A stretch of DNA of 64,000 nucleotides from a virus, in IMG/VR virus record IMGVR_UViG_3300044641_009589, positions 1-64,000 of that record, one strand, 5' to 3'. Both the position numbers and the translations under genes were made by a program. Numbering within the stretch: the stretch's first letter is position 1; each line of letters opens with the position of its first letter. Below are positions 14,704-29,853 of this stretch, one piece after another. Below the pieces are notes generated by a model. The model was not told where the DNA came from. It did not search any database and was given only the letters and a program-made list of their open reading frames with translations.

Positions 14704-15698
14704 ACATCCAGTATTTAAGAGCGTCTTCAATAAAAACCTACGAGGGTTGTCAGTTTCAGTTCTTCCTTGACTCAATACTTGAAATACCAAGCGGGTCTGG
14801 GAAAAAGGCCCTTCTTGGTACAATTGTGCATCACGTACTTGAAATAATGGCAAAAGCCACAAAGCTTGGTCACAAAGATGGCCTTCTGCTTGATCACGTG
14901 CTTTTGCTAGATATATGCTGGAAGCGTTACAAAGCTGAAAACGCTGGAAGAATTGATTTGGCTGATGGTGCCGATAAAAGGTTTTGCCTTAAGTCTATTG
15001 AAAAGGTTCTAGGCACGAAGTACGATCCAAGAAACCTGAAGGTTCTGCACACGGAGCGTCAATTCAGAATACCTTTAACAATGCCAGGCTTTACCTTTGA
15101 GTATTACGATGTACTCAGCAAGAAAACTACTTCTGGAAACTACGAAATCCGTGGCACGATTGATCTAATAACTAAGCTTGATGACAGCACCCTAGAGATA
15201 ATTGATTGGAAAACAGGATCAAGAAAATCTTGGGAGACAGGCGAGCTTAAAGAATATGATTATTTTGCAAGCAAAGATATACAGCTAAGAATGTACGATT
15301 TGGCTGTTTCGATGCTGTATCCGCAGTACAAGACTAGACTTTTGACGATACACTTTGTAAACGACGGTGGGCCATTTACGGTATGTTTTGATGACGAGCA
15401 AAGAAAGGAAACTTTGTCAATTATCAAAGACCACTTCAATACCATAAAGGGTAATCATCTTCCAACCAGGATTAAAGAGGTTAACGGTTCACAGGCGTGG
15501 AAATGCAAGACAACATGCCATTTCGGAAAGACAAAAACCGCAAATGGTTGCAGCGTATGCGATAATGTTTTCAACTATCTTGTTGCTAACGGAATCGACA
15601 AAACTATACTTAGAGTCGGAGAGGTTCGTAAGACAAAGGCCGAGGAAAAGGCACTTAAAACATCTGACAGAAGAAACACTTTTAAAGACGAACAATGA
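14700..15698 (+). CDS. Cas4/RecB-like PD-(D/E)XK exonuclease with probable Fe-S cluster
   Basis: 332 residues. N-terminal YEGCQFQFFLDS gives the first cluster Cys and QxxF helix. TIVHHVLEIMA supplies the motif-I His. GTIDLITKLDD...LEIIDWKTGS is the catalytic GxID...D-W-K-T core. ASKDIQLRMYDLAVSML is the QhxxY helix. Three more Cys cluster near the C-terminus (WKCKTTCHFG, then GCSVC), the AddB/Cas4-type 4Fe-4S arrangement. Likely a ssDNA or end-processing exonuclease for recombination. ATGA overlap with the SLOG gene. Confidence 0.88.
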   Translation: MNIQYLRASSIKTYEGCQFQFFLDSILEIPSGSGKKALLGTIVHHVLEIMAKATKLGHKDGLLLDHVLLLDICWKRYKAENAGRIDLADGADKRFCLKSIEKVLGTKYDPRNLKVLHTERQFRIPLTMPGFTFEYYDVLSKKTTSGNYEIRGTIDLITKLDDSTLEIIDWKTGSRKSWETGELKEYDYFASKDIQLRMYDLAVSMLYPQYKTRLLTIHFVNDGGPFTVCFDDEQRKETLSIIKDHFNTIKGNHLPTRIKEVNGSQAWKCKTTCHFGKTKTANGCSVCDNVFNYLVANGIDKTILRVGEVRKTKAEEKALKTSDRRNTFKDEQ

Positions 15699-17578
15699 GC
15701 TATATTCCTGTTCATGTGCACACCGCGTGGTCGCTTCTTGATAGCGTTGTAACAATTGATTCTCTTGTTGCAAAGAGCAAAGAGTACGGCATACCAGCAA
15801 TATGCATGACAGACCACAACAATATCAAGGGCGTTGTTCCATTCTTCAAAGAATGCAAGGCCTCTGGTATCAAACCAATAATTGGGGTAGAACTTGACAC
15901 TTACAGTGGTGATAATTTTGTTGGGCGAATAACCCTTCTTGCAAAAAATAAAACAGGCTATAAAAACATAGTTAAACTTGTGTCTATGGCCCGGACAAAG
16001 GAGGCCCTTTCTTTTAATGGAATGCCTAGAACACAAGTAGAGTCACTTTATCCATATAAAGCTGGTCTTATCTGTCTCGTTGGCGATCTTAAAAGCCAAA
16101 TTTATTCAAGCGCTTTTGTAAACCACGAAATGGCTTACTCAAGCGACTCTGTTGAAGAGTGCGAAACACTGCTGCACAAAGACTGGAAGTCTCGTATTGA
16201 AAAAGTTCTAGAGAATTATAAGAAGATATACGAAAACGTATTTTTGTTTTATGACGTCAGTCTTCTTCCAGCCCATTTTGTTCTTGGCAAGAGAATAAGC
16301 GAATCTTTTGAAGAGGCCCTGCCTTCTCATAATATCCATTACCTTAATAAGGAAGATATTGAGCTTCACGAGCTTTTAACAAAGGCTAAGGAAGATGGCG
16401 GATCTTGCTGCGAGGCAATGAACGATTCTCGCATATTTGACAAGCGATGGTCTCGTGGATATCTATCAAAGGAGCTTAAGCGAGGAGAAAAAACCCTTAA
16501 GCTTTTAGATCTTATTGAAGACTACTCAATTCAAGAACGACCAATTCTTGCAAGCTTTAAAGTTGGAGACCACAAAATAGTTGATCCACATGAGTATCTG
16601 CGCGAACTTTGCAGATCTGGTTTTAAGTCAACTGGTCTTCTTCAAGAGTTTAAGCAAGACCCATCTCTTAAAGAAGCTTATGTAAAAAGAATACAACACG
16701 AACTTGAGGTATTCAAGCAAGCTGGCATGTCAGCGTACTTTTTGATTGTTCATGATATCATAAACAGTCTTCGATCAAAGGGTGTTCCGGCAGACATTAG
16801 AGGCTCATCTTCTGGCTGCATGATCTCGTATCTCATCGGTATTTCTTCCGTTGATCCGATGCGACCAGACCCAACACTTGGCTATGATCCAGGGAGAGAG
16901 CTTCCATTTGAAAGATTTTACAATGAAGGCAGAAACACAAAAGAAAACGTTTCCTTACCAGATATCGATATGGATGTGCCACCATCTTTCAGAGAGTCAC
17001 TTATTGGGTATATTAGCAAAAAATACGGAAGTGATTGTGTTGGTCACATTATTACTCACTCAAGATTTAAAGGCCGTGGCGCAATAAAAGAGGTATTTAA
17101 GCTTTTAAAACCGACACCAGATTATTTTGATGTTTCAAATCAAATCACAAAAAAGTTTGCTGAAGAAGCAAAGATCTCAGACGATCTTGTAGAAATGCAG
17201 AAAGAAGACCCGTCTTACGGAATTATCCGATGGAACATAGACAATATTAAATCAATTGCTGAATATTACGAGCAGTTCAAGGAGGCCTTTGACTATGCTT
17301 TAAGAATAGAAGAAGTGCCTAGAAATGAGAGCGTACACGCCGCTGGAATCATTATTGCTGATCAGCCACTTAGTAATCTGTTTCCAATGGTGTACTCTGA
17401 AAAACTTGATGCTATGGTGATAGATGTAGAAGGTGCCGACATAGAATATTTAGGAGGCGTTAAATTTGATATACTTGGCGTAACCGCACTAGAAAAAGTT
17501 TTTCAAATACAACGTATGGTTAATTTTAAGCTTGATGAAATTGAGTTTGGGGAGTTTTCTTACTCGTACTACGATTAA
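15695..17578 (+). CDS. dnaE: DNA polymerase III alpha subunit, N-terminal half (PHP + palm + thumb)
   Basis: 627 residues. The PHP domain opens the protein (HVH at residues 7-9, MTDHNN, IGVELDTY). The palm carries all three catalytic aspartates: LPDIDMDVP gives Asp423 and Asp425, and GGVKFDILG gives Asp592. SSSGCMISYLIGI and RVHAAG-like SVHAAGIIIA motifs are present. The reading frame ends just before the fingers, where bacterial DnaE continues with T-x-G-V-F-Q-L-E-S. That part is encoded at 28309-29853. No intein N-terminal motif is seen at the end. The last residues NFKLDEIEF resemble the start of the other half (MFNIEEVNF). The stop is followed at once by a promoter motif and structured RNA. 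Confidence 0.93.
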   Translation: MSYIPVHVHTAWSLLDSVVTIDSLVAKSKEYGIPAICMTDHNNIKGVVPFFKECKASGIKPIIGVELDTYSGDNFVGRITLLAKNKTGYKNIVKLVSMARTKEALSFNGMPRTQVESLYPYKAGLICLVGDLKSQIYSSAFVNHEMAYSSDSVEECETLLHKDWKSRIEKVLENYKKIYENVFLFYDVSLLPAHFVLGKRISESFEEALPSHNIHYLNKEDIELHELLTKAKEDGGSCCEAMNDSRIFDKRWSRGYLSKELKRGEKTLKLLDLIEDYSIQERPILASFKVGDHKIVDPHEYLRELCRSGFKSTGLLQEFKQDPSLKEAYVKRIQHELEVFKQAGMSAYFLIVHDIINSLRSKGVPADIRGSSSGCMISYLIGISSVDPMRPDPTLGYDPGRELPFERFYNEGRNTKENVSLPDIDMDVPPSFRESLIGYISKKYGSDCVGHIITHSRFKGRGAIKEVFKLLKPTPDYFDVSNQITKKFAEEAKISDDLVEMQKEDPSYGIIRWNIDNIKSIAEYYEQFKEAFDYALRIEEVPRNESVHAAGIIIADQPLSNLFPMVYSEKLDAMVIDVEGADIEYLGGVKFDILGVTALEKVFQIQRMVNFKLDEIEFGEFSYSYYD

Positions 17579-17587
17579 GTGTATATA
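17579..17587 (+). promoter_or_regulatory. late-promoter-like GTGTATATA
   Basis: Plus-strand GTGTATATATAG directly after the polymerase stop codon. The nearest coding start is 105 nt away, and a terminator lies in between. Its main product is therefore likely to be the short structured RNA described next. Confidence 0.5.
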
Positions 17588-17592
17588 TAGGT

Positions 17593-17674
17593 GATTACGC
17601 TATTCGGGCATCTTAGGCCCGTCTGAGTTACGCGTAGTTGCCCATCAGTTCGTAACTGTTCTGATGGGCTTTTT
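17593..17674 (+). ncRNA. candidate structured small RNA of about 80 nt
   Basis: The predicted 5' end lies 14 nt after the promoter motif, by analogy with the leaderless genes; the 3' end is the U-tract. Structure read by eye: TACGC (17596-17600) pairs with GCGTA (17632-17636) and encloses hairpin CGGGC/GCCCG (17605-17609 with 17617-17621). Next comes the terminator stem GCCCATCAG/CTGATGGGC. GTTACG (17627-17632) is also complementary to CGTAAC in the terminator loop (17651-17656), allowing a 6-bp pseudoknot as an alternative to the first pairing. It could instead be a leader with transcription attenuation for the methyltransferase gene. Confidence 0.5.
17640..17674 (+). terminator. rho-independent terminator
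   Basis: Perfect 9-bp stem GCCCATCAG (17640-17648) with CTGATGGGC (17661-17669), 12-nt loop, followed by TTTTT. It ends transcription of the replication operon and of the candidate small RNA. Confidence 0.85.
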
Positions 17675-17683
17675 AAGGACAAC

Positions 17684-18559
17684 ATGAAGACCACTCAAAA
17701 CAATATTGAGAGAAAAACAAACGCATGTTCTTTTTCTAAACCTAGCTATAAGCTTTGGAATATGACATCTTCACAGGGTCTAATGTTTTTTAGGAGCATC
17801 CTAGAATGCTCTGGCATAGATGACACAGACCATCTTTTAAAAATTGCAAAGCAAACTATTGATCATCTTAAAAACCCAAAGGACAAAAGAAATAAGTCAA
17901 AAGAGCTAGAGGTTCTTATGCTAGATTGGTACGATTGCTTATCTAGCGGTAGTCCTGCGTATGAGATATACAGCAAAAAAGAGTATTTAAGTGAGGTTTG
18001 GGCTTGTTGGTTAGTGTACTCAAGAAAGTACATAAAAGAAATTGCGAGTCCAACAGTTTGTATACCTAGAGGAATTTTTGGCGAGATCAACAAAGGCTCT
18101 ATTATAGCTGATCTTGGCAATGGGATTGGTATAACAAGCGCAGCCTTTAAACAAGCCTTTCCAGACGCTTCTGTGATTGGAACAAATATCATAGCATCAG
18201 ATCAATGGAGGGTAGCTAGCTTTTTATCAAATGAATATGATTTCGGTCTTGTTGAAAGCGCTGCAGATATAGCCACCAATGTAGATGTTGCGTTTGCTTC
18301 TGAGTATTTTGAGCACTTCGAAGACCCAATTGATCATCTTAACGATATATTTAAAGCAATTAAACCAAAAAGAATGATTATCGCAAACGCCTTTACCGCA
18401 AAAGCAATTGGTCACTTTGATGTTTACAAAAGAAACAATGTTAAAATAAAATCAACATCGATGGGTTCTTTTTTTTCAAGGGCGATGAAAGACTTAGGAT
18501 ATTCGCAATTAAATACTGGTCTATGGAATAATAGACCTCAAACATGGATACTTAATTAA
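17684..18559 (+). CDS. SAM-dependent methyltransferase, class I
   Basis: 291 residues; Shine-Dalgarno AAGGAC sits before ATG 17684. The N-terminal 135 residues are helical and unassigned. From about residue 140 a Rossmann fold appears: SIIADLGNGIGITSAAF is motif I, SVIGTNI follows, then VDVAFASEYFEHFEDPIDHL is the motif IV/V region typical of small-molecule or protein methyltransferases, then AIKPKRMIIANAF. No DNA-methyltransferase DPPY/NPPY motif is seen, so DNA as substrate is unproven. It lies just after the terminator. Confidence 0.8.
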   Translation: MKTTQNNIERKTNACSFSKPSYKLWNMTSSQGLMFFRSILECSGIDDTDHLLKIAKQTIDHLKNPKDKRNKSKELEVLMLDWYDCLSSGSPAYEIYSKKEYLSEVWACWLVYSRKYIKEIASPTVCIPRGIFGEINKGSIIADLGNGIGITSAAFKQAFPDASVIGTNIIASDQWRVASFLSNEYDFGLVESAADIATNVDVAFASEYFEHFEDPIDHLNDIFKAIKPKRMIIANAFTAKAIGHFDVYKRNNVKIKSTSMGSFFSRAMKDLGYSQLNTGLWNNRPQTWILN

Positions 18560-18560
18560 A

Positions 18561-18758
18561 ATGGATGATATAGACATGCGCGATATGGACCCAAGGCTTG
18601 CAAAGGCTATGATAATATTTGGTCTTAAGTTTGCCGAATACACTAAAGAGATGGACTACGAGCTTTGGACTAGAGCCATAGATTACGCAAAGACATTTAC
18701 AAAGGTTGATGGGGTTGAGATTAACTGCGACCCTAGAGAAAAAAATGAATTTCAATAA
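18561..18758 (+). CDS. small hypothetical protein
   Basis: 65 residues (MDDIDMRDMDPRLAKAMIIF). Helical and acidic, not recognised. It begins 2 nt after the methyltransferase stop and overlaps the next start, so it is operon-embedded and probably real. Confidence 0.65.
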   Translation: MDDIDMRDMDPRLAKAMIIFGLKFAEYTKEMDYELWTRAIDYAKTFTKVDGVEINCDPREKNEFQ

Positions 18759-18951
18759 CTTTGGAACCGTAAAAGCACGTCATAAAGTTCGCGGAATTGA
18801 AATAATTGAAAGAGAATACAGCATAGAGCTTAAGTCTGATAGCAGCTCTGTTTTCCTATCTTCTATTGAAGAAATAGACAGTGTTATTGATGTATTAAAG
18901 TACGCAAAGCTTGCGCATCACAAGAAAAAGTTTTTCACACTAAAAGATTAG
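18745..18951 (+). CDS. small hypothetical protein
   Basis: 68 residues from ATG 18745, with purine-rich AGAGAAAA ahead of it; an earlier in-frame TTG at 18706 is less likely. Beta-then-helix appearance (VKARHKVRGIEIIEREYSIE). Not recognised. Last gene before a late-promoter motif. Confidence 0.65.
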   Translation: MNFNNFGTVKARHKVRGIEIIEREYSIELKSDSSSVFLSSIEEIDSVIDVLKYAKLAHHKKKFFTLKD

Positions 18952-18952
18952 C

Positions 18953-18961
18953 GTGTATTAC
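18953..18961 (+). promoter_or_regulatory. late-promoter-like GTGTATTAC, 14 nt before ATG
   Basis: Plus-strand GTGTATTAC; its first G is exactly 14 nt from ATG 18967, and the start reads TATGG, matching other 14-nt cases. It implies that the two membrane-protein genes are late genes. Confidence 0.6.
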
Positions 18962-18966
18962 GCTAT

Positions 18967-19932
18967 ATGGAAAACTTTCGTTTTATAAAAACGCTTAATC
19001 AAATTGCTTTAGCAATAGAGGACCAGACTCAACTAGCCACTGGTGTTCCTGGCGAGGCTAAGGAAGGTGGTTCTTTTTTAGGTCTTGGCGAATCAGACTG
19101 GTGGGCCATCAGTATTTTGGGCGGAATGGGAGTATTTGCTGGCTTAAATAAGATCGTTGACAAAGTTTTAGAATATCTAGGAAAGAACAAAGAATGCCTT
19201 AAGCTTTTCGGTAGATATCTCAAAGGTCCTTTCCTTCAACTACTAAACGGAATGGTTCAAGGCGTTTTTGGTGGCACCATAGGAAGCTACTTAAGCAGAG
19301 ATCCATCTACTGGTGATACCTTGATGAAGGCTAGAGAGCTTTGGCAAAAATGGCAATCATCAAACTACAGAGACACTTTAAATAGGGCAGTAGACAATCT
19401 TTATTCTTCTGATCCAAATATTGAGGACGTTAAGCGGCAATTAAGAAGATGCATTGCTGATGGAACCCTAGACAAATTCATAAAAGATCTAATGTACGCC
19501 ACATTTGTATCAAAGTTCCCGAATCTACCAAAAGAGCTACTTGAAGCAATTAAGCGTTTCTGGGATTCGTTTTTAAACAATGGGGATTTGTATGCATTTG
19601 GTGCTGCGATTGCAGCAGCTGTCTATCAATTTGGTGCTGGAGCAGGAGAGGCAGCGTATGTTCTGGCTGCAGAAGTGCTTGGTCAGGGTTTTGTAGCAGA
19701 GTATGGCGTTGGTTATACTGTAATTGTTGGTGTTCTAACCGCAGTTTTTATTGGTCTCAGTGCGTTTTTCTTAGCTGGTGGCACTTTAGCTGGTATTGCT
19801 GCTTGGCTTAGCTCCACAGCTAGCGGGATAATATCTACTGCTGCTGCTGGCGCTGGTTTGAGTTCAGCAGCTATTCAGAGAATAAATGAAATAATTCAGC
19901 AAATAGCTAGACAAGTATTGCCAGCCACATGA
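18967..19932 (+). CDS. late membrane protein with basic N-terminal helix
   Basis: 321 residues. N-terminal helix MENFRFIKTLNQIALAIE, then a Gly/Glu linker (TGVPGEAKEGGSF) like those of other late proteins here. SDWWAISILGGMGVFAGL is hydrophobic, the middle is soluble helical (about 95-200), and the C-terminal 120 residues hold several membrane segments (for example YTVIVGVLTAVFIGLSAFF), rich in Ala/Gly. A pore, injection or envelope-associated virion protein is possible; no family recognised. ATGA overlap with the next gene of similar design. Confidence 0.75.
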   Translation: MENFRFIKTLNQIALAIEDQTQLATGVPGEAKEGGSFLGLGESDWWAISILGGMGVFAGLNKIVDKVLEYLGKNKECLKLFGRYLKGPFLQLLNGMVQGVFGGTIGSYLSRDPSTGDTLMKARELWQKWQSSNYRDTLNRAVDNLYSSDPNIEDVKRQLRRCIADGTLDKFIKDLMYATFVSKFPNLPKELLEAIKRFWDSFLNNGDLYAFGAAIAAAVYQFGAGAGEAAYVLAAEVLGQGFVAEYGVGYTVIVGVLTAVFIGLSAFFLAGGTLAGIAAWLSSTASGIISTAAAGAGLSSAAIQRINEIIQQIARQVLPAT

Positions 19933-20735
19933 ACAGTAAAGACGTAAAGCTTTTTAATTACATAGCAAAAGTCGCAGCAAAAAGAGGCGATACTGTTTTA
20001 GCGCCAGGCCAGACCCAAACATTTGAAGACATAGGTCCTGTTAGCGAACCAGCAGAAAAACCAGATAAAGAAACCGAAATAGCCTGGGAAAAATGGATTA
20101 CTGGGCTTTCGCTTGCCCCAATTCTAGTTTGGGCATTGAGATCTCTTTGGAAATACCTTGATCCGTTCTGCAAAAGAAGACTAGCTGGAGTTCTTGAGTC
20201 TTTAAGCGCAGCGATGAAAAAATTAAATGAAGCGGCTGGCCAAAATGAGTTTGCTGCGGCAGCAGAGGCTCTACGGCAAATATTTCAATCATTACCTAAA
20301 AACTGCAGAGATGGAGTTTTGGAAAATCCAGAGTTTGTTGCCGAGCTTAGAAGAATCTCAGACGGTATGGCTATAACCATTGAGGACTTGATTGGCAAAT
20401 ACATTATGCAAAAAAATCAGGACGACGCCCTGAGATGGCTAGTAAACTACGGAACCTCTGCGGCAACAGTAGCAGCCGTTTATCTTTGGGCTTTAAATCA
20501 GCCCGGCTCAAGTCCTAGTATTGCGGCAGAAATAGCAGCGTGGGCAGAAACAAATAGAACTGTGCTTTGGGTAATCGCTAGTGCTGCTGTGTTATTCGGT
20601 CTCGCTGCTGCACTTAGCGGCGTTGGACTTCCAGTCGGAATTGCATCTGGAGCTACTGGAGTTATACTTATGGCCCTATTGGCTTGGCTAAATCAAGATC
20701 CCCCGCAAGATGCTGGTGGCGGGATGGAAGCCTAA
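19929..20735 (+). CDS. late membrane protein, similar design to its neighbour
   Basis: 268 residues. N-terminal helix MNSKDVKLFNYIAKVAAKRG, then a polar linker (APGQTQTFEDIGPVSEPAEK), a first membrane segment (LSLAPILVWALRSLW), a soluble helical middle with CKRRLAG and NCRDGV, and two or three C-terminal membrane segments ending LLAWLNQDPPQDAGGGMEA. Same domain order as the preceding protein, suggesting distant paralogy or joint function. It converges on the minus-strand gene ending at 20732 with a 4-nt overlap. Confidence 0.75.
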   Translation: MNSKDVKLFNYIAKVAAKRGDTVLAPGQTQTFEDIGPVSEPAEKPDKETEIAWEKWITGLSLAPILVWALRSLWKYLDPFCKRRLAGVLESLSAAMKKLNEAAGQNEFAAAAEALRQIFQSLPKNCRDGVLENPEFVAELRRISDGMAITIEDLIGKYIMQKNQDDALRWLVNYGTSAATVAAVYLWALNQPGSSPSIAAEIAAWAETNRTVLWVIASAAVLFGLAAALSGVGLPVGIASGATGVILMALLAWLNQDPPQDAGGGMEA

Positions 20736-21121
20736 ATAGAAGCTTCGTTTATTGCTTTAATAAAAGAAGAAATTACTGAGCTGCTTGTGTAGTCAGTAAC
20801 AGACTTCTTAGCTTCCCACATCTTACAAGACCAGTAGTTAGCCTTCCATTTTGGACCAGGATTACTGCACCCGTGACGTGATCTGTAATTTTTTCTTCTT
20901 TTTGGGTCGTCACGACGTATTTCCATGTTTGGATCACCGAACATTACGCGGACAACATTTCCACGATCGTTCTTGACGTAAACGTAGAATTTCTTCTTCC
21001 CGTAGCCAGGATCGCCCTTACCTATTCGTCTTGGTTGATTTAGGGTTACTTTTTTACCCTGATACTCAACTGCCTGGGCTTTCTCTGAAGCAAAAATTAC
21101 GTCAAGTTCCGAGTCGGTCAT
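20732..21121 (-). CDS. conserved phage protein, GDPNMEIRRDDPKRRKNYRS family
   Basis: 129 residues. The core VEYQGKKVTLNQPRRIGKG, then KKFYVYVKNDRGNVVRVMF, then GDPNMEIRRDDPKRRKNYRS, then NYWSCKMW is a signature I recognise from many large phages, usually near structural genes, with no established function. The C-terminal helix SSSVISSFIKAINEAS resembles capsid-targeting peptides in sequence style (weak inference). Overlaps the upstream gene by 4 nt. Confidence 0.8.
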   Translation of the reverse strand: MTDSELDVIFASEKAQAVEYQGKKVTLNQPRRIGKGDPGYGKKKFYVYVKNDRGNVVRVMFGDPNMEIRRDDPKRRKNYRSRHGCSNPGPKWKANYWSCKMWEAKKSVTDYTSSSVISSFIKAINEASI

Positions 21122-21351
21122 AGCTTCTCCAGACCCTCGACGCGCTCCGTTACGCTCCAGCCGGTATTGTGCGGAAACTCTGGATTCATTATTTTAATTG
21201 ACGCAACACCAGAATTAATTTCTAAAACTTCGCCCCAAACACCAAAGTTAACCGAGTCCTTGTTTCCGCAGCTAACTATGTCGCCAGCTGAAATGCTAGC
21301 CTCTTCTGGCTGCTGTGGTGTGTAATCGTAATCGTTTTCTTCTTCGTTCAT
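21118..21351 (-). CDS. small SH3-like protein
   Basis: 77 residues. Acidic N-terminus, then ISAGDIVSCGNKDSVNFGVW, GEVLEINSGVASIKIMN: a five-stranded SH3/KOW-type pattern. Ends EGLEKL, much like the next upstream gene (DQLEKLS). Not assigned. Overlapping starts and stops mark an operon with 21348-21629. Confidence 0.7.
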   Translation of the reverse strand: MNEEENDYDYTPQQPEEASISAGDIVSCGNKDSVNFGVWGEVLEINSGVASIKIMNPEFPHNTGWSVTERVEGLEKL

Positions 21352-21629
21352 GATAGTTTTTCCAATTGATCTTCTGTCTTTTTGAGCACTGTTCCTGGGC
21401 CATACGAAGGTCCGTCATTTTCTACGGTATAATGAATAAGGTATCCGCTGTTTTCTGGCAGGGCCTCAATCATAGTAACGACCCCTACGCTGCCGTAATG
21501 CATGCACTGCTGATTTACGTCTTTTACGCGATCGCCAACCTTTATACCTTTGTACGAGGTTATTTCTGTCCCCATTGCTATTTGCAATTTTCTCAGTGCA
21601 CTCTTGATCTTATTATTGGCTAAGCCCAT
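21348..21629 (-). CDS. small SH3-like protein, phage-conserved
   Basis: 93 residues. Basic N-terminal helix (NNKIKSALRKLQIAMG) followed by VGDRVKDVNQQCMHYGSVGVVTMIE, a motif seen in several phage structural regions. First gene of the minus-strand operon 21629 to 20732, 14 nt after a GTGTATAAT motif and with no visible Shine-Dalgarno. Confidence 0.75.
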   Translation of the reverse strand: MGLANNKIKSALRKLQIAMGTEITSYKGIKVGDRVKDVNQQCMHYGSVGVVTMIEALPENSGYLIHYTVENDGPSYGPGTVLKKTEDQLEKLS

Positions 21630-21634
21630 GTATT

Positions 21635-21643
21635 ATTATACAC
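21635..21643 (-). promoter_or_regulatory. late-promoter-like GTGTATAAT, 14 nt before ATG
   Basis: The minus strand reads GTGTATAATAATACATGG: motif and start codon are exactly 14 nt apart and no ribosome binding site fits between them. Confidence 0.65.
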
Positions 21644-22307: not shown

Positions 22308-23213
22308 TTAGCACGGTGTGTTGCCAATAACCGTATACCCCTTGTTTGTTGCTATTGAATCGTTTACTGGAACCCCCGACGCACAAGTAATATTTATATA
22401 TCCATTTCCGTTTCCAAGATCTGTAAAAAATTGCTCTATTGCTGCTGTTCCTAGTCCACAGGATTGTAGGCTCGCGCCACCCTTGAAAAGACTGTATGTT
22501 GAATAATAGTCAGAGTATAAAATACAACCAACAGCCCGTAAAGACGTTAAAGAGGCGCAGTTACTAACATTTATATTATAGAGATACGGATTATTAGCAG
22601 CTGAAAACTCAAGAGATGTAACAGATGTTATTCTACAATCAAAATTTAAAATATTTCGTAAACTAGACACTCCTGTAATTGAAGCCAGGACAGTGCTATA
22701 TGCTAGGTTCAATTCAATCAATCTAAAGCCATTAGATAGATCAAGACTCGTTAATCCAGTATTAGTTAAGGCAAGAGTTCCTATTCTTCCGTTGTGTTTA
22801 TAAGAAGTAAGCCCAGACCCAGAATCGCACGCAAAAATACCTAGCTGTGATAAAGAGTAAATATCTACAAAGTTTATCTGCGATCTCGTGTAGTTTCCAA
22901 ACCCGATTGTGGTTATGTGGCCAATTATTTTTCCTGTTGAATCGCAGGCATACATAGAAAATTCTTTTTCGGCGGATGTATTGTATGGTGCTGCAACCAA
23001 TTTTGTAATATACTGAATACTGATTGGAATGCCATTTCCGTAAACCGTAGTAACGCCGTCCCACCATTTTACAGCGACGTATCCAGTTGTCGTATAAACG
23101 TAGGCGGTATTAAGAGCACCAAACGTTCCGCTCGATTTCGGTGTTGTAAACCTAGCTATTTCAGCAACACTAGGTACCGAAGAAAAATATTTAGCGCTTG
23201 GTAAAACAATCAT
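22308..23213 (-). CDS. leucine-rich-repeat-like virion protein, candidate receptor binder
   Basis: 301 residues from ATG 23213, which overlaps the fibre stop (ATGA). About 110 N-terminal residues are beta-rich. Then LRR-like units follow: LTNTGLTSLDLSNGFRLIEL, LNLAYSTVLASITGVSSLR, ITSVTSLEFSAANN, INVSNCASLTSLRAVGC. The end (GYINITCASGVPVNDSIATN, then KGYTVIG) matches the cap seen after LRR arrays in phage and Bacteroidetes surface proteins. Probably part of the host-recognition apparatus. Confidence 0.7.
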   Translation of the reverse strand: MIVLPSAKYFSSVPSVAEIARFTTPKSSGTFGALNTAYVYTTTGYVAVKWWDGVTTVYGNGIPISIQYITKLVAAPYNTSAEKEFSMYACDSTGKIIGHITTIGFGNYTRSQINFVDIYSLSQLGIFACDSGSGLTSYKHNGRIGTLALTNTGLTSLDLSNGFRLIELNLAYSTVLASITGVSSLRNILNFDCRITSVTSLEFSAANNPYLYNINVSNCASLTSLRAVGCILYSDYYSTYSLFKGGASLQSCGLGTAAIEQFFTDLGNGNGYINITCASGVPVNDSIATNKGYTVIGNTPC

Positions 23214-25720
23214 ACTGTGAGTGTTCCTGCCAAATTGTATGTGTCTGTAGTGTAGCAAATTATACTCGCAGCACCAAACTGACCGCTTATCTTGTTTCCA
23301 GACGCGTAGCAGTTTAATGTTGCGCCAGAAAGACCAGTGCAGGTTACCTGTCCAGTTCCTAGCTGAATTATTGTCGCATTGAAACCAACGTCAAGGCCAG
23401 TTGGTATTCGCAGCGTGTGGCTTGCTGCGCTGTTAAAAGTTATTACTCTTCCATTGTCCGATGCCTGTAGTGTGTAGCCAGTTGCTGTTTGTGCGTTTAT
23501 TGCGTTTGATGTTATTCTGTAGCCGCTTGCAGCTAGCATATGCCCAGTTGACTGAACGCTTGACCAGCCAATAGCCGCACCAGTCGCTCTAACATCAGAG
23601 CTTGTTAGTATTGACTGACCTATTGCTCTTAGTGGGCCGGAATCAAGTATCACTCCGCTTGCCGAAGATCCTTTAAGGACAAGCCCACCTAGAGTGTTTC
23701 CGATTGTTATTTGGCTGTTACCGAAAGATCCGTTTGTACCAATATTTATTATCTTATGACCGCCAACAATCGAATTCGTTCCAATGTCTATGAATCCAGT
23801 GCTGCTGCCAACAGTAGTGTCTAGTGTTAGGCCACCGATTGTTATACCTGTTGCGGTTGACCCTATTACGTTTGTTCTTCCGTTTATTGTTATTGTGCCT
23901 GTAGAGGCTGTGCTTGGACCTATCGTTATGTTTGTTGTTGCTGAACCAACAGAGGCCCCCGTTCCTATGTTTATTGTTTTTGTTACACCTGCTCCGTTTG
24001 CGCCAGTACCAATGTTTAAAGTGCTTGCTGATGTGGCGCCACCAATAGTCATTGTTGTAGCGGCCCCGCCCATTGAAAGTGTAGTGGCTGTTGTATTAAA
24101 TACAGTTACAGATGCCGCGGTTGTTGTTATAGTTCCATCATTAACCGCGATATCACCAACTGTGACGACGCCAGTCGGATGACCGATCTGCACACCGCTT
24201 GCACCACCGCCAATATTAACACGGGCAGCTGTAGTGTTAAATATGTTTGCACTTGTAGCGGTTGTTGAAATGGTTCCGCTGTTCGCTGCAATGTTGCCCA
24301 TCACAACGGTTCCAGTTGGATGCCCAATCTGTACACCACTAGCGCCACCGCCAATATTAACACGGGCAGCTGTTGTATTAAAAATTGTAGCTGAAGAGTT
24401 TGACGTTGTTATATCACCACCGTTTACAGCAATGTCTCCCCCCAAAACAGTTGATGGACTGTTTATTGTGGTTGTTCCAGCAGAGGAAGAACCCAGGCTT
24501 ATTGTAACAGTTCCATCACCCCCAGCAGTTGTTCCTATTTTAATTATTTTCTGCTGCGGATCAAAAATATTTCCTGTTGCAATGTTAACGTTACTCGCTG
24601 ACGTAAATGCGTTTGCTGTTACTATGTTAGTATCAAAAACGCTTGCAGTACCAGCAAGAGGCGTAATTATGTCAGGGGTTCCTAGAGTGAGTGTTCCAGA
24701 CGCCAAAATGTTGTTTGGAACATCGTTTGTTCTGCCTGGACCAAGTACTATGATTTGCCCATTGTTTGAGTTAACTCTTCCAACACGACCAATGTTTTGC
24801 ACCAAAATGCTTGCGCCAGTCGGTCTGACATTTGTTACCCATCCAGTTGAATTAACGTAAACGCTATTACCAACAGTAAACGCCGATGTGTCAGTATCAC
24901 TTAAAACACCAACTATTACGATATAACCAGTTGCGTTTACGGCCAAAGACTGGGCACACAACCCAACCGCTGGCATTTTTGCAGTGGTATCAGCACGAGC
25001 AAGCTGAATTTCAATAACATCACTAGCCCCAACGTTTCCTGATATGAAAACTGGATCACCTTTACGTAGCGTTACTGAGTCTGTGTTTTTGCATGCTTTT
25101 AAAACAGCGCCGTCCATGTCACCTGTAATGTGGTCTACAGTTAGCGCCTTTGTGATTGTTACGTTTCCAGGGAAGGTTGTGGTTGTGTTGCTGTTTCCGA
25201 TACGAACATCATTTGGCGTTGGGTAAAGGTATCCTGTCGAAGCAGCAAGTGTATCAAGAGTAACAGCAAGAGATCCAGTAGGCTCAATTCTTATGGTGTT
25301 TGAGTCTGTTCTAAAGACCAAGTCACCGCCGTCTGTTCCAGCAACTTCTGAATAAAGACCATTGTATGTTTTTGCGTTTATCCAATGACTCCACGAAGTT
25401 GTTGGATCTTCTGATGCAAAAATGTTTAATGCTGAAGTAGTATCAGTTAATACGCCACTAACGTGCATCGATCCGCTTACGTAAATGTCTGGATCAAGTC
25501 CTATTGTTGTTGATCCTGTTGCTTGCGTAACGTAAATACCGCTTGTTGAGCCGTATACAGCGGTAACGCCCTGGTTTGTGATTTCTACTGGATTTCCCGA
25601 TGCATTACCAACAAAAAGTCTTTTGTCTGTTATGTTTACCGCAAGCTCGCCCTGCAGCAACGATCCGCTTGTTGGCGTTGACGTAGATGTTGTGGAGTTT
25701 TTTGTCTTTATTCTTGGCAT
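23210..25720 (-). CDS. large tail fibre protein with internal repeats
   Basis: 836 residues. N-terminal SGSLLQGELAVNITDKRLFV is the widespread phage fibre attachment motif. The centre carries 47-residue repeats and many IGTG/IGG turns typical of beta-helical shafts. The C-terminus YTLQASDNGRVITFNSAASH through IIQLGTGQVTCTG matches a common fibre tip domain. It is first in a minus-strand operon with the LRR-like protein and sulfotransferase, 16 nt after a GTGTATATT motif. Confidence 0.85.
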   Translation of the reverse strand: MPRIKTKNSTTSTSTPTSGSLLQGELAVNITDKRLFVGNASGNPVEITNQGVTAVYGSTSGIYVTQATGSTTIGLDPDIYVSGSMHVSGVLTDTTSALNIFASEDPTTSWSHWINAKTYNGLYSEVAGTDGGDLVFRTDSNTIRIEPTGSLAVTLDTLAASTGYLYPTPNDVRIGNSNTTTTFPGNVTITKALTVDHITGDMDGAVLKACKNTDSVTLRKGDPVFISGNVGASDVIEIQLARADTTAKMPAVGLCAQSLAVNATGYIVIVGVLSDTDTSAFTVGNSVYVNSTGWVTNVRPTGASILVQNIGRVGRVNSNNGQIIVLGPGRTNDVPNNILASGTLTLGTPDIITPLAGTASVFDTNIVTANAFTSASNVNIATGNIFDPQQKIIKIGTTAGGDGTVTISLGSSSAGTTTINSPSTVLGGDIAVNGGDITTSNSSATIFNTTAARVNIGGGASGVQIGHPTGTVVMGNIAANSGTISTTATSANIFNTTAARVNIGGGASGVQIGHPTGVVTVGDIAVNDGTITTTAASVTVFNTTATTLSMGGAATTMTIGGATSASTLNIGTGANGAGVTKTINIGTGASVGSATTNITIGPSTASTGTITINGRTNVIGSTATGITIGGLTLDTTVGSSTGFIDIGTNSIVGGHKIINIGTNGSFGNSQITIGNTLGGLVLKGSSASGVILDSGPLRAIGQSILTSSDVRATGAAIGWSSVQSTGHMLAASGYRITSNAINAQTATGYTLQASDNGRVITFNSAASHTLRIPTGLDVGFNATIIQLGTGQVTCTGLSGATLNCYASGNKISGQFGAASIICYTTDTYNLAGTLTV
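24020..24440 (-). repeat. three tandem 141-bp (47-residue) repeats in the tail fibre
   Basis: The segment IFNTTAARVNIGGGASGVQI occurs twice, exactly 47 residues apart (codons starting at 24385 and 24244 on the minus strand), and a diverged third copy (VFNTTATTL) follows 47 residues later. Each unit begins with a G-[DN]-I-A-x-N segment. The DNA of the first two copies is nearly identical over about 60 nt. Confidence 0.8.
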
Positions 25721-25727
25721 TACATTA

Positions 25728-25736
25728 AATATACAC
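25728..25736 (-). promoter_or_regulatory. late-promoter-like GTGTATATT
   Basis: Minus-strand GTGTATATTTAATG, 16 nt before the tail fibre ATG at 25720. It faces away from a second motif on the plus strand at 25781. Confidence 0.55.
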
Positions 25737-25780
25737 GAAATTACCGCTGAGCACTTTACAGATCTACAAGATCCGTCTAA

Positions 25781-25789
25781 GTGTATTAT
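25781..25789 (+). promoter_or_regulatory. late-promoter-like GTGTATTAT, 14 nt before ATG
   Basis: Plus strand: GTGTATTATAGCATATGG, 14 nt from motif to ATG 25795; no Shine-Dalgarno. Confidence 0.65.
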
Positions 25790-25794
25790 AGCAT

Positions 25795-26433
25795 ATGGGG
25801 AGCAATGAAAGCAGGGTTAAAGATTTTATCGCTCACGTTAAGGCTGTGGCAAAAGAGCACGGAGTAGTTGTAAAAATAAAAAATAGCAACAACGTCAGGG
25901 AGCCTGCTGGTAACACCCTTTGCTGTGGATACTTTTTAGATTCTGATAACGAAAAAACCATAGTGGTTGCCAGGGGCGACAGGCCGCTTCACGAATGGCT
26001 TGGGTTTCTTGTGCACGAGTACTGCCACATGATGCAGTGGATAGAGCGATCTCCGGCTTACACGAACACGTTTCTTAAAGGCGGTGAGGACGCAACTTAC
26101 AAGCTTTCCCTTCTTGAAAACGGCGAAGCAAACTACAACAAGCGTTTACGCCGTGTCTACACTAAAAAAACTATTGCCTGCGAGCTTGACTGCGAAAGGC
26201 GAGCCGTTAAAACTATAAGAAAATTTGGACTGCCGATAAATGTTGAAAATTACAAAAGATCTGCGGCAATAACCCTCTACAAATACTGGGTTCTTTGTAA
26301 TACTGGTAAGTGGATTGGTGATTCTTTTGAGAGAAAAAGATCGCTCATAAATAAAGTAAAACCGTCCCTAAAGGGGCGGTTTAATTGTGTGCCGAAAGAA
26401 ATAGAGGTGGCTTTTTCACACATCAGCACATAA
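25795..26433 (+). CDS. putative HExxH metallopeptidase
   Basis: 212 residues. FLVHEYCHMMQWIE contains the zinc-binding HExxH (HEYCH) near residue 75; the Glu in TIACELDCERRAV is a candidate third ligand. Phage proteins of this kind are annotated as putative metallopeptidases without a proven substrate. It is a single gene on the plus strand between two minus-strand virion blocks and has its own late-type motif. Its last 75 nt also encode, on the other strand, a terminator for the opposing operon. Confidence 0.7.
   Translation: MGSNESRVKDFIAHVKAVAKEHGVVVKIKNSNNVREPAGNTLCCGYFLDSDNEKTIVVARGDRPLHEWLGFLVHEYCHMMQWIERSPAYTNTFLKGGEDATYKLSLLENGEANYNKRLRRVYTKKTIACELDCERRAVKTIRKFGLPINVENYKRSAAITLYKYWVLCNTGKWIGDSFERKRSLINKVKPSLKGRFNCVPKEIEVAFSHIST
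26359..26382 (-). terminator. terminator of the minus-strand operon, inside the opposing gene
   Basis: AAACCGTCCC (26359-26368) and GGGGCGGTTT (26373-26382) form a 10-bp stem (one G-T pair) with a TAAA loop. On the minus strand it is followed by a broken T tract (TTTTACTTTATTTAT). It lies 40 nt after the stop of the minus-strand Cys-rich gene. On the plus strand only TTTAATT follows, so it is less likely to act in that direction. Confidence 0.7.
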
Positions 26434-26980
26434 GATGCTGTAAGCCTTTTCTATCGATAACCTTTTGTCTCTCTCCACACACGGTACTAATCCAAGTATA
26501 AGAGCATCCGTCTGTATAAAAATCTAAAATTTGCTGGCCCATTACGGCTTGACTGAAGCCTAAATTGTTTACACTTGGCGTGCCTGAAATAGCATTGTTC
26601 AAACAGTCGCATTCGGCTTTTCTTGAGGCTTCTGCTCTTTGCGCTGGGGTTGCGTTTTGTGGCAATGCTGCAACCACAGAGTTTGCATACGATTGGCATT
26701 TTGCAATTATTATGTCACCCTTCGTAAACTTTTTTGTTGAGCAAGGGTTGTTATTATTCCTTTTAATGTCTTTTGCGCACTGATTAGATCCAGGGCTTCC
26801 AACAGATCCAGACAGTTGTTTAACAGCCTCACATATTTTAGTTATACTTAGTTGATTTGTGCCTTCTATGCAGCAGTTGCACGAAAGACTAGTTGGTGAT
26901 TTTGTACCTGGCGCAATTTGCGTGTCTTGCCGCGCAAACAACATAATGTGTTTTTTAATTAATCTTTCTAGTTTACTCAT
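26423..26980 (-). CDS. Cys-rich late protein with basic N-terminal helix
   Basis: 185 residues, about 11 cysteines, in pairs such as SCNCCIEG, CDCLNNA and SYTWISTVCG. N-terminus MSKLERLIKKHIMLFARQDT, then a Pro/Thr linker, as in other late proteins of this phage. It resembles 37735-38304 in design (a helix, linker, then Cys-spaced helices) but not clearly in sequence. Overlaps the upstream gene by 8 nt and the opposing peptidase gene by 11 nt at the 3' end. Function unknown. Confidence 0.75.
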   Translation of the reverse strand: MSKLERLIKKHIMLFARQDTQIAPGTKSPTSLSCNCCIEGTNQLSITKICEAVKQLSGSVGSPGSNQCAKDIKRNNNNPCSTKKFTKGDIIIAKCQSYANSVVAALPQNATPAQRAEASRKAECDCLNNAISGTPSVNNLGFSQAVMGQQILDFYTDGCSYTWISTVCGERQKVIDRKGLQHLMC

Positions 26981-27635
26981 TTTCTAGCCCCGCCTCGCTG
27001 TTTTCTCTGTCTTCTTCTTCTCTTTCCCGTATTTCGTATTCAGCTTCTAACCAAGTGTCAGGCCAGTGATAGTAAGTACCACCACGGCTTAGATGCTGCA
27101 TCCAGCTTAGTATCTGCTGCAAAGTCCATCCTCGTTGTAAAGCAGCACAAACCTCTCCAACAACAGTTGGTGTCCATAAGTTTTCTGTTAGGCCATCTTG
27201 TATAGAAATTGCGACTCTTACAACAAGCTGCTCTGCGTCAGACCCAAGTGGAAGATTAAGAGCATTTACAAAACTCCATATTATTGACCTGACAATCTCT
27301 GAGACTACATCTGTTTGTCTTCCCAAATAAAACCATACAGACAGATCCCACAAGATGTTTTCAACAAGCGTAAGATGCACAACAAGCATTTCTGCCAATG
27401 GTCGTGTAAATCCAAGGTGGTACATCAAAAAATAAACGATTGCATCATTTATACCACCAAACCTTCGAATTATTGAATCAAGTATATCCGACATCCACGT
27501 ATCAAATTTTGATGGTGCTGACAAAGAGTGGGTTGGTGTTCCCTCTATTGGCACACTTGGCTCATCAAAACGCGTAGGAAAATCCGCAGCTGCCGCGTTA
27601 ATGTGTTTTATTATGCCCAACCGCATTTGATCCAT
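26973..27635 (-). CDS. hypothetical late protein
   Basis: 220 residues. Begins MDQMRLGIIKHINAAAADFP, then a Pro-rich linker (PSVPIEGTPTHSL), then helical amphipathic or hydrophobic segments (AIVYFLMYHLGF, MLVVHLTLVENILWDLSVWF). Ends in a highly acidic tail. Not recognised. First gene of the two-gene minus-strand operon, 14 nt after a GTGTATTTA motif and without a Shine-Dalgarno. Confidence 0.75.
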   Translation of the reverse strand: MDQMRLGIIKHINAAAADFPTRFDEPSVPIEGTPTHSLSAPSKFDTWMSDILDSIIRRFGGINDAIVYFLMYHLGFTRPLAEMLVVHLTLVENILWDLSVWFYLGRQTDVVSEIVRSIIWSFVNALNLPLGSDAEQLVVRVAISIQDGLTENLWTPTVVGEVCAALQRGWTLQQILSWMQHLSRGGTYYHWPDTWLEAEYEIREREEEDRENSEAGLENE

Positions 27636-27640
27636 AAAAT

Positions 27641-27649
27641 TAAATACAC
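27641..27649 (-). promoter_or_regulatory. late-promoter-like GTGTATTTA, 14 nt before ATG
   Basis: Minus strand GTGTATTTAATTTTATGG. Same 14-nt spacing and TATGG start as the other predicted leaderless genes. The divergent exonuclease gene starts 18 bp further on. Confidence 0.65.
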
Positions 27650-27666
27650 GAACACTACAATCCTAC

Positions 27667-28305
27667 ATGAACAAGAGGAATTTCGTTGTTTACGATATTG
27701 AAACCACTGGTCTAGATTATGAAAACGGTGCCGAGATAGTTCAAATAGCTGCAGTAACACTTAATTACTCGGATTACGAAATATCAAAAACAATTCCAGA
27801 ATTTTGCATTACCGTTCAACCACAAAGTCCTGAAAAGGCTGATGCCAAAGCAATACAAGTAATTGGCCAAGATCTTTGGACAAAAGCGCAAACCGATGGA
27901 ATGCATCCAAAGACTGCTCTTAGAAAGTTTAAAGAGTATCTCTCTATATCAAATCCTTCTGAAAATCCATGGGAATACCCCATAATTGTTGGTTATAACA
28001 ATTGTAATTTTGACGATAGATTTGTTGAATACTGGATGCGCAAATACAAGATAATTAATGGCAAAAATGATTGCCCGTGGTCAAACATAAAACTCGATAT
28101 GATGCCCATGATGTTTTCTATTTTTGGCAGGGATAACCTTAAAAATAACAGACTAGACACTTACGCTGGTTTACTTGGTATGAAAAGGACATCTGAGACT
28201 CACGACGCACTTGAGGACGTGAAGATTACGGCGGAAATGTTTAAACGGTATATGTCGTTTATGAACTTTAAGATACGTCCTAAGATCAAGATAACAGCTG
28301 AGTAA
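27667..28305 (+). CDS. dnaQ: DnaQ-like 3'-5' exonuclease (proofreading)
   Basis: 212 residues. DEDDh exonuclease motifs: VVYDIETTGL (Asp/Glu of ExoI), VGYNNCNFDDRFVEYW (ExoII), THDALEDVKIT (ExoIII His and Asp). It removes mispaired 3' ends. It lies 3 nt before the C-terminal polymerase gene, which supports a role as the epsilon-like proofreading partner of the split Pol III. A CTACAAT element ends 7 nt before the ATG. Confidence 0.92.
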   Translation: MNKRNFVVYDIETTGLDYENGAEIVQIAAVTLNYSDYEISKTIPEFCITVQPQSPEKADAKAIQVIGQDLWTKAQTDGMHPKTALRKFKEYLSISNPSENPWEYPIIVGYNNCNFDDRFVEYWMRKYKIINGKNDCPWSNIKLDMMPMMFSIFGRDNLKNNRLDTYAGLLGMKRTSETHDALEDVKITAEMFKRYMSFMNFKIRPKIKITAE

Positions 28306-28308
28306 AGT

Positions 28309-29853
28309 ATGTTCAACATCGAAGAAGTAAATTTTAAAAACGACAAAACATGGCGCTTAATTCAAAGTGGAAACACTGGCGGTGTTTTTCAACTCGAAAG
28401 CGAGCTTGGAAAGCAGTGGGCCTCCAAGATAAAGCCTAAAAACATAAATGAACTTAGCGCGGTTCTTGCACTTATTAGACCGGCGTGTCTTGAGTCTGGA
28501 ATGACTGAAAAATACGCGAGAGTAAAGAACGGGCTTGATGTCGCCCACAAGTTTGGAGATGAGGACGTTGACCGTATTCTGCAGCCAACAAGCGGAGTTC
28601 TCATTTATCAGGAACAGCTAATGAAATTTGGTGGCGAGATCGCATGGAAGGAAATGCCTTATATTGACCGTCTAGTTATTGTTGATAAGCTAAGAAAGGG
28701 CATTGGAAAGAAGGATTATAAAGTAATCAGTGATCTTCGTGAAAAGTTTGTTTCTGGCTGTGTAAAAAATGGAAAGTCAAAAGACTTGGCAGAGCAGCTG
28801 TTTTCAATGATTGAAAGCGCTGGAAGATACGCCTTTAATGATGCTCACGCGAAAAAATATGCAGTGTGGTCTTACAGAACTGCGTATATGAAGGCGAACT
28901 TTCCGCATGAGTTTTATTGCACATACCTAACATACTCCAAGGCTAGACAAAAATCAAGAGAAGAGCTTCACGATATGATTAATGAGGCGAAGCTTTGTGG
29001 TATAAAAATACTTCCACCAACAATCACGGAGTCGTCAAAAGACTTTAAAATTGTCAACGATAATAACTCAAAGAGTATTATATTTGGTCTTAGCCACATC
29101 AAGCAGTTTGGAGAGAAGGACTGGGAAACAATAAAGACGAATAGACCAAAGCACTTTTCTGAATTCATAAACCTTGCCTATAGGGAAAAGGATTCTTTGC
29201 GATCTCTTGGTGTAGAATCCCTAATAAAAAGTGGGGCTTGTGATTTGTATGGAATTGGAAGAAAAACAATGCTTGATGTCGTTGGTGCCATGAACGAACT
29301 AACACCAAGAGAGGTTAAGTACGTTGTGGACGAAATTTGTAAAAATGAACCGAACAACTCGGTATCATTAATTAAGCAAAAAATGATTGAGTGTTCTGAG
29401 ACTATTAGTACTAAAAAGAGAAAGCCAATAGTCAAATCTGAGGCTGATGCAATAGATGAAAACGCAAAGGACACAACTGACTGGAAGGCCTCTAGTGAAC
29501 AAGAACTTTTGTCTATTGCAATGACTTGCAGCGCAGTAGATGAGTACAAAGATATAGCTGACTTTACATGCAAGGATTGCCACAGGATGCTGCGAAACAA
29601 CAAAGGTATCACAAAAAGGGTTATTGCATCAATTGTAGACACAACGTTTACAGTCACGAAGAAGGGTGAAAATCCTGGCCAGGAAATGTGTCAAATAAAC
29701 ATTACTGACTCAAGTGGCAGCATAAGAATCGTTATTTTCCCAAATGCATACGCAAAACACAAATCAAAAATTAGAAAGGACGGCAAATATGAGTTTACCA
29801 TAAGAGGAACTGGAAGCGGATGGTCAGTAGAGTCTTTAACAGAAATAAGTTAA
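28309..29853 (+). CDS. dnaE: DNA polymerase III alpha subunit, C-terminal half (fingers, beta-binding, OB)
   Basis: 514 residues. It opens MFNIEEVNFKNDKTWRLI and by residue 25 reaches GVFQLES, the conserved start of the DnaE fingers. LALIRPACLESGM, VLIYQEQLMKF, LRKGIGKKD and YAFNDAHAKKYAVWSYRTAY follow in family order. The last 110 residues form an OB fold (INITDSSGSIRIVIFPNAYA). No catalytic aspartates are here; they are in the 15695-17578 gene. Together the halves total 1141 residues, close to bacterial DnaE. No intein C-terminal block precedes the first extein-like residues, so the two chains probably assemble non-covalently. Confidence 0.93.
   Translation: MFNIEEVNFKNDKTWRLIQSGNTGGVFQLESELGKQWASKIKPKNINELSAVLALIRPACLESGMTEKYARVKNGLDVAHKFGDEDVDRILQPTSGVLIYQEQLMKFGGEIAWKEMPYIDRLVIVDKLRKGIGKKDYKVISDLREKFVSGCVKNGKSKDLAEQLFSMIESAGRYAFNDAHAKKYAVWSYRTAYMKANFPHEFYCTYLTYSKARQKSREELHDMINEAKLCGIKILPPTITESSKDFKIVNDNNSKSIIFGLSHIKQFGEKDWETIKTNRPKHFSEFINLAYREKDSLRSLGVESLIKSGACDLYGIGRKTMLDVVGAMNELTPREVKYVVDEICKNEPNNSVSLIKQKMIECSETISTKKRKPIVKSEADAIDENAKDTTDWKASSEQELLSIAMTCSAVDEYKDIADFTCKDCHRMLRNNKGITKRVIASIVDTTFTVTKKGENPGQEMCQINITDSSGSIRIVIFPNAYAKHKSKIRKDGKYEFTIRGTGSGWSVESLTEIS

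Follow-up and report, generated by a model that had tools for sequence, protein, structure and literature searches.

A DnaE-type DNA polymerase III alpha in two distant phage genes, broken between palm and fingers with a dnaQ-like gene in the break

We analyze here a stretch of viral DNA of 64,000 bases (the window, from here on), which is the first part of the 82,894-base record IMGVR_UViG_3300044641_009589, and in particular the two genes in it that encode the alpha subunit of DNA polymerase III (Pol III). Pol III alpha is the main bacterial replicase, and it is normally one long chain. In the window, a first gene, dnaE-N (half 1; 15695..17578, plus strand, 627 aa), encodes the PHP, palm, and thumb, and a second gene, dnaE-C (half 2; 28309..29853, plus strand, 514 aa), encodes the fingers, helix-hairpin-helix (HhH), and OB regions. 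The same break, at the same position, is conserved in a large clade of viral sequences, almost always with an open reading frame (ORF) for a DnaQ-like exonuclease inside it, and both halves are under purifying selection. We consider it quite probable that, taken as a whole, these observations are explained by a replicative polymerase that is a two-subunit DnaE, derived from a broken dnaE, with a DnaQ partner.

The two polymerase genes and their products

A first-pass annotation, made from the sequence alone, had read these two ORFs as the parts of a replicative Pol III alpha divided where the palm meets the fingers. Both ORFs are present as it described them, and their Pfam content agrees with that reading. 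The product of dnaE-N has a continuous PHP match (PF02811, residues 6-162) and covers the DNA_pol3_alpha model whole (PF07733, 1-260 of 260). The product of dnaE-C enters the finger model midway (PF17657, positions 20-166 of 166) and then goes on to HHH_6 (PF14579); its OB match is under the curated Pfam cut-off, and the OB region is nonetheless aligned in structure. Sequence matches to solved DnaE chains run until Escherichia coli residue 573 in half 1, and from residue 590 in half 2.

Alignment to full-length DnaE structures also partitions E. coli alpha between the two halves. AlphaFold 2 (AF2) models were built for each chain alone, on alignments of 37 half-1 and 35 half-2 clade proteins, and reach a mean predicted local distance difference test score (pLDDT) of 84.9 for dnaE-N, in which the final 8 residues stay below 50, and of 89.9 for dnaE-C. 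Among the chains ranked high by Foldseek, to which the structural comparison is restricted, residues 1-615 of dnaE-N superpose on E. coli alpha 4-578 (2hnh; Z 32.6, root-mean-square deviation (rmsd) 3.3, 544 residues aligned), and residues 1-514 of dnaE-C on E. coli alpha 583-1074 (5fku; Z 20.8, 457 aligned, rmsd 8.4). The large rmsd of this second fit indicates that domains are placed differently; the core of dnaE-C fits 5lew with Z 21.7 and rmsd 2.7 over 314 aligned residues. The limits of the two superpositions, 578 and 583, put the cut within a few residues between palm and fingers. Both by sequence and by predicted structure, the halves complement each other as parts of a single DnaE-type Pol III alpha.

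The three catalytic aspartates assigned to half 1 at first pass (423, 425, and 592) are all invariant among the 37 aligned clade half-1 proteins, and many finger residues are invariant across the 35 aligned half-2 proteins. The chain of dnaE-N ends 35 residues past D592; that of dnaE-C starts 24 residues ahead of GVFQLES, which does begin at residue 25 of the translation. Purifying selection acts on both halves. Measured against two relatives, half 1 has a ratio of nonsynonymous to synonymous rates (dN/dS) of 0.039 and 0.027, and half 2 one of 0.026 and 0.018, with synonymous differences near saturation in the second relative. Against a further relative (L006/L021; L numbers are our labels for the loci compared), dN/dS is not computable because synonymous sites are saturated, and a dnaQ comparison with L021 picked up 14 codons only and is not used. 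As a separate observation, the first metal motif of the PHP domain (HxH) is intact in the window but not invariant across the clade half-1 proteins, and PHP nuclease activity may have been lost in many clade members.

The two halves sum to 1141 residues, which had been taken at first pass to be close to a whole DnaE. This does not hold, as half 2 ends after the OB, around residue 1074 of the 1160 in E. coli alpha, and the C-terminal domain, which is the tau-binding domain of DnaE, is absent. Excerpts of PMC3919608 describe a C-terminal domain after the OB in a typical 91% of DnaE1, and with half 2 ending at 5fku residue 1074 the window's protein lacks this mark of DnaE1. It does have the DnaE-type succession of a PHP and then a Pol III palm with three catalytic Asp, all in dnaE-N, followed by fingers, tandem HhH, and OB, all on the second polypeptide. 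Because these parts are not on one polypeptide, we class the pair as a split variant, which would be expected to work like DnaE. It is distinct from PolC, which has a DEDD exonuclease inside the PHP; here the PHP is uninterrupted and the exonuclease is encoded separately. It is also distinct from the split-intein DnaE, to judge from the lengths and sequences of the ends at the break, where there are no intein parts.

The dnaQ-like gene and the clade that shares the break

The gene for the DnaQ-like 3′-5′ exonuclease (DEDD type; 27667..28305, plus strand, 212 aa) lies 3 nt before half 2, as the first-pass annotation had noted. It matches RNase_T (E = 6.4e-18) and PHROG 192, "DNA polymerase exonuclease subunit", and it has the DEDDh exonuclease motifs of DnaQ/epsilon proteins.

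To see how far this arrangement extends, we have surveyed viral contigs with two single-protein scans and two profile scans, the profile scans contributing the best 80 of 575 and of 589 confirmed candidates. Because only the best-scoring rows were surveyed, the counts describe the nearer kin of the window and not phages at large. Among 175 viral rows, 133 have the halves in separate ORFs and one is unsplit (L013); the remaining 41 show a single half inside the stretch examined, and are excluded from the split count. Any difference within a 150-residue stretch of one half or the other makes two pairs distinct in our count, and near-identical pairs are thus counted separately. In this way, at least 96 distinct split pairs are recovered from viral contigs (L053 is kept although its half-2 frame looks disturbed), and together with three named phages (L029, L030, and L034) they make 99 pairs.

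A DnaQ-like ORF is found between the halves in 94 of the at least 96 viral-contig pairs; the pairs without one are L123, L154, and the three named phages. Using simple patterns for the DEDDh motifs, Exo I is found in 91 of these 94 ORFs, Exo II in 73, and Exo III in all 94, and the ORF of L039 has an RNase_T match as well. In 66 of the 94 loci the dnaQ stop falls near the first Met of dnaE-C, in a range from 25 nt beyond it to 38 nt short of it, and in L039 the dnaQ ATG comes immediately after the dnaE-N stop codon. The position of the break is similarly uniform: the half-1 tail extends 18-25 residues past the last catalytic motif in 78 of the 99 pairs, and the half-2 head has 20-29 residues ahead of the FQLE-type motif in 75 of them (two other pairs have no motif, and four give a negative length). 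Exactly one palm match (PF07733), one finger match (PF17657), and one RNase_T match are present in each of nine records, that is, the window's own and those of eight relatives, which may be incomplete.

A FastTree tree built on 133 rows groups 99 split rows, all of those besides Rossellomorea phage phiT1 (L034), into one clade with support 1.0 that adjoins the unsplit L013. An IQ-TREE tree built on 50 rows likewise unites its 29 split rows besides phiT1 in one clade with SH-aLRT 100. Both trees exclude L029 and L030, which are broken elsewhere in the gene. When phiT1 is forced into the split clade, the likelihood is 71.7 lower and the approximately unbiased (AU) test gives p 0.0066, with the provisos that this group was chosen only once the tree had been seen and that the tree has long branches. 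All of the 80 bacterial relatives examined (the best 80 of 587 confirmed, from genome contigs) are unsplit. The root of the tree was not inferred by a program, and the history leans on these outgroups. The simplest history is one break in this clade and a second, apparently independent one in phiT1, which shares the boundary. The ancestral layout of the clade was probably dnaE-N / dnaQ / dnaE-C.

Alternatively, there could have been many independent breaks at a tolerant linker instead of one ancestral event. That phiT1 is broken at the same boundary, while a single clade including it is disfavored by the AU test, and that other named phages have dnaE broken elsewhere, both speak for recurrent breakage. 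We nevertheless give this alternative a low probability, because all the remaining split rows fall in one supported clade, and because a DnaQ-like ORF in the break is common to nearly all of the viral-contig pairs (94 of at least 96).

As for named isolates belonging to the clade, none was seen in the best-60 lists for the two halves of L098, drawn from more than 1,260 rows, a search that was not exhaustive. The rows in these two lists are 24-34% identical. In all of the 24 records common to both lists the N and C matches are 22-100 bases apart, a spacing that leaves no dnaQ between them.

Other ORFs occur in the break of some loci. L056 has an Endonuclease VII ORF (PF02945, E 4.1e-15), and similar ORFs of about 120-134 aa, between dnaQ and dnaE-C like that of L056, are seen in L064, L068, L085, L095, L113, L139, L164, L171, and L175; PF02945 was tested, and matched, for L056 only, the other nine being assigned by eye from similar sequence. 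L073 has an HNH_3 ORF in its break (PF13392, E 1.2e-8). Such nucleases would suit the insertion of a mobile nuclease as in T4-like phages, but they may also have arrived later. A short ORF of some 70-87 aa is located between dnaE-N and dnaQ in L098 (7571-7819), in L161 (5104-5325), and in many members whose gap measures about 900 bp. The short ORFs of L098 and L161, the two that were tested, have no Pfam match, and this ORF may be a further subunit.

The proposed enzyme, the gap between its genes, and the alternatives

In the history that we propose, a single break at the palm/fingers linker would have divided an intact dnaE in the common ancestor of a large clade of phages. The dnaQ gene would have come to occupy the break, giving an operon dnaE-N / dnaQ / dnaE-C, and in the lineage of the window a block of genes would later have entered between dnaE-N and dnaQ and so produced two transcription units. 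The subunits N (PHP, palm, and thumb) and C (fingers, HhH, and OB), made from separate genes, would then fold side by side with no covalent joining, and rebuild between them the same palm/fingers interface as in an ordinary Pol III alpha. Such non-covalent assembly is the likely mechanism, and it has a precedent in 43A/43B, the split polymerase of family B in Aeromonas phage 25, whose products co-purify and polymerize, as excerpts of PMC2988022 report.

The DnaQ-like exonuclease would be the proofreading partner, and perhaps a fixed part of the complex. We can go one step further, if only tentatively, and consider an obligate three-protein core N / DnaQ / C, in which the exonuclease helps to hold the pieces of alpha and so couples proofreading to assembly. 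If true, this would be a third way of building a C-family replicase, besides PolC, with the exonuclease inside the PHP, and E. coli, with a free epsilon. The DnaQ-like ORFs found in 94 of at least 96 breaks lead here to a direct, testable prediction about assembly.

A number of points weigh against the two-subunit DnaE. The structures were predicted one chain at a time. The clamp family PF02767 has no match in any of the nine records, which may be incomplete, and by eye there is no clear clamp-binding motif in half 2. Two loci, L123 and L154, have the split but no DnaQ-like ORF in it, so that dnaQ may have entered after the break, and the profile that identifies DnaQ derives from the very ORFs that it reports, seeded with the DnaQ of the window. 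The clade adjoins a single unsplit viral row, L013, on a long branch (a scan for further unsplit sisters of L013 returned the same contig only), so that reading the split as gained, and not lost, depends on the outgroups. Finally, all members of the clade are metagenomic contigs.

Could the halves no longer form a polymerase at all? They might be relics, or have taken on separate roles (PHP nuclease, for example), with the host Pol III used for replication. The missing C-terminal domain, a first PHP metal motif that is not invariant in the clade, and the phage clamp not found with PF02767 in the nine records would be in keeping with this. We think it improbable, in view of the invariance of the three catalytic Asp (37 proteins) and of many finger residues (35 proteins), of dN/dS values of about 0.02-0.04 on both halves, and of both halves having been kept together in all nine records, from genomes that also encode a helicase, a primase, and an SSB. 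A second complete polymerase elsewhere in the genome, which the first-pass annotation had named as evidence that would count against its proposal, did not appear among the families looked for: Pol A (PF00476) and Pol B (PF00136) have no match in the nine possibly incomplete records, with other polymerase families not searched.

The split dnaE of the window differs from that of most of its relatives in the 10.7-kb gap between the halves. The spacer between half 1 and dnaQ (17579..27666), which is probably derived, includes a methyltransferase-like gene (17684-18559, plus strand) and ORFs on the minus strand (20732-21121, 21649-25720, and 26423-27635) that argue against a common transcript for the two halves. 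One of the proteins in the spacer, of 836 aa (23210-25720, minus strand), has a weak Mtd_N match below the cut-off, and is perhaps a tail fiber or receptor-binding protein. The distance from the half-1 stop to half 2 varies widely among relatives: it is 664 bp in L039 and L046, which are 58% identical in half 1 and have dnaQ alone between the halves, 5.1-5.6 kb in L040 and L122, and 8.9-9.3 kb in three close relatives (L005, L009, and L011). In L040, L122, and these three close relatives, dnaQ adjoins half 2. Because the gap is under 1.5 kb in 79 of the 99 pairs, we read the large gap as secondary, and probably as a later insertion between dnaE-N and dnaQ.

Immediately after half 1 there is a conserved stretch (17537..17680, plus strand) made of the last half-1 codons and intergenic DNA, which we take to be a probable intrinsic terminator plus a further element. 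Positions 17537-17659 have 93.5% identity to a relative that is about 72% identical around them, and this is one of two such stretches (60-base segments at ≥93%) in the aligning part of 5700-26000. A 34-base core has one match in each of seven viral contigs, all of which have this half 1. The fold z is -2.28, and a 9-bp hairpin at 17640-17668, followed by a T run, is a probable intrinsic terminator; a simple terminator scan did not list it because its loop is longer than the scan allows. Right after the hairpin, the window, L002, and L003 start one gene (the methyltransferase-like gene in the window), and L004, L005, L006, L009, and L011 start a different one (MD(D/E)IDM...). Going by these sequences, the hairpin after half 1 marks a module boundary.

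This unusually conserved and foldable DNA directly 3′ of half 1 is also what one would point to in favor of RNA trans-splicing, in which the two genes would be exons joined through the halves of a group I or II intron and the conserved stretch would be the 5′ intron piece. This is very unlikely. No Rfam family reaches threshold in the window, nor, apart from a tRNA, in eight other loci. In eight close half-2 loci the start codon adjoins or overlaps the end of dnaQ, which leaves little room for the 3′ half of an intron. The conserved stretch finishes in a terminator-like hairpin, and it is absent, by eye, from four 58-60% relatives (L038, L039, L040, and L043).

The first-pass annotation had further proposed that the end of half 1 and the start of half 2 are two versions of one segment, duplicated by the split. 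The pair of segments that it named is not the best one. Among ungapped matches of one end to the other in the window, VNFKLDE / VNFKNDK scores highest (shuffle p 0.016), and this similarity recurs in a 90% relative (L005/L017, p 0.026). The L006/L021 junction gives p 0.013, but with other stretches, and there is no similarity in L039 (p 0.71) or L040 (p 0.63). Across the clade, 8 of 96 junctions have p < 0.05, when about 5 would be expected. We thus reject the duplication as a trace of the original split; what remains is a weak similarity that looks to be a feature of the window's closest kin only.

Protein trans-splicing by a split intein at the break, although cyanobacterial DnaE is joined in this way, and so is the split PolB of phage MIJ3 (excerpts of PMC6892783), can be set aside almost entirely, in agreement with the first-pass annotation, because the ends are too short for intein blocks: 35 and 24 residues in the window, with similarly short tails (18-25 residues in 78 of 99 pairs) and heads (20-29 in 75 of 99) elsewhere. 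A sequencing or assembly error, a natural concern for a metagenomic contig and one raised at first pass, is just as remote, since independent contigs 122-125 kb long (L003/L015, L009/L016, and L011/L019) repeat both the break and the gene order, and the break is found in at least 96 distinct pairs from many samples.

Known split systems and neighboring genes

Split phage polymerases, and split Pol III alpha among them, are already in print (excerpts of PMC7824862, PMC7302621, and PMC2988022). Like the window, the group 2.2 jumbo phages encode Pol III alpha as two proteins, with the genes far apart, and the two are proposed to reconstitute an enzyme; this alpha is described in excerpts of PMC7824862 as a minimal alpha, without other Pol III domains, in an NTP-binding part and a Mg/template-binding part, with a family B polymerase alongside. 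By comparison with that description, the window has a PHP and a cut between palm and fingers, and PF00136 has no match in the nine possibly incomplete records. The Aeromonas T4-like phages 25 and 44RR likewise have a replicative polymerase from two genes, gene 43 being present as 43A/43B, but theirs is of family B, and what separates the two genes is either a seg homing gene or a spacer that is not translated (excerpts of PMC2988022), as opposed to Pol III alpha and dnaQ here. In phage Aeh1, nrdA is split by the insertion of mobE and the split NrdA is fully active, according to excerpts of the same source; the insert in that case is a homing endonuclease, while the usual insert here is dnaQ, with Endonuclease VII-like or HNH ORFs in some breaks.

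DnaE also comes from neighboring separate genes in Microbacterium phage AnnaSerena of cluster EF (excerpts of PMC7302621). Two neighboring dnaE genes are found in the isolated phages Rossellomorea phiT1 (L034), Bacillus Jayan (L029), Tenacibaculum Larrie (L270), and Mycobacterium Onyinye (L280), which break dnaE at three different places and, unlike the window clade, have no dnaQ in the break. The break of phiT1 is at the same boundary as that of the clade, yet phiT1 lies outside it; Jayan and Larrie are broken just ahead of the first catalytic Asp motif, and Onyinye between PHP and palm. Staphylococcus phage MVC_VPHSA1 (L030) has five adjoining genes annotated as DNA polymerase. In cyanobacterial DnaE, the intein break is at another site than the palm/fingers boundary. 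That DnaE has a split-intein form from two separate genes (excerpts of PMC3919608), two as here, but joined by an intein, which is not present here.

In the open-access papers searched, which exclude subscription journals and preprints, we found no description of a dnaE split around dnaQ, and excerpts of PMC13140390, PMC10580990, PMC8008677, PMC12926913, and PMC10674732 do not describe Pol III alpha in two genes. Within that literature, what is new is a PHP-bearing DnaE with a palm/fingers cut, dnaQ inside the cut, and the arrangement kept across a clade. The cut separates the part that holds the catalytic metals from the part that grips template and nucleotide, and a natural split replicase of this kind would be useful for studies of the crosstalk between palm and fingers and of the way proofreading is attached. 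Annotation pipelines may mislabel each half as a fragment.

Other replication genes are found around the two halves. Upstream of half 1 are a DnaB-like helicase (11168..12607, plus strand; PF03796, E 3.1e-25; PHROG 19) and a DnaG-like primase (12570..13616, plus strand; Toprim matches; PHROG 47, DNA primase), and 50 nt after half 2 is an SSB (29904..30332, plus strand; PF00436, E 5.5e-30). The window also encodes a RecA/UvsX-like protein. After the SSB, at 30498-35934 on the plus strand, there are at least four genes with glycosyltransferase matches.

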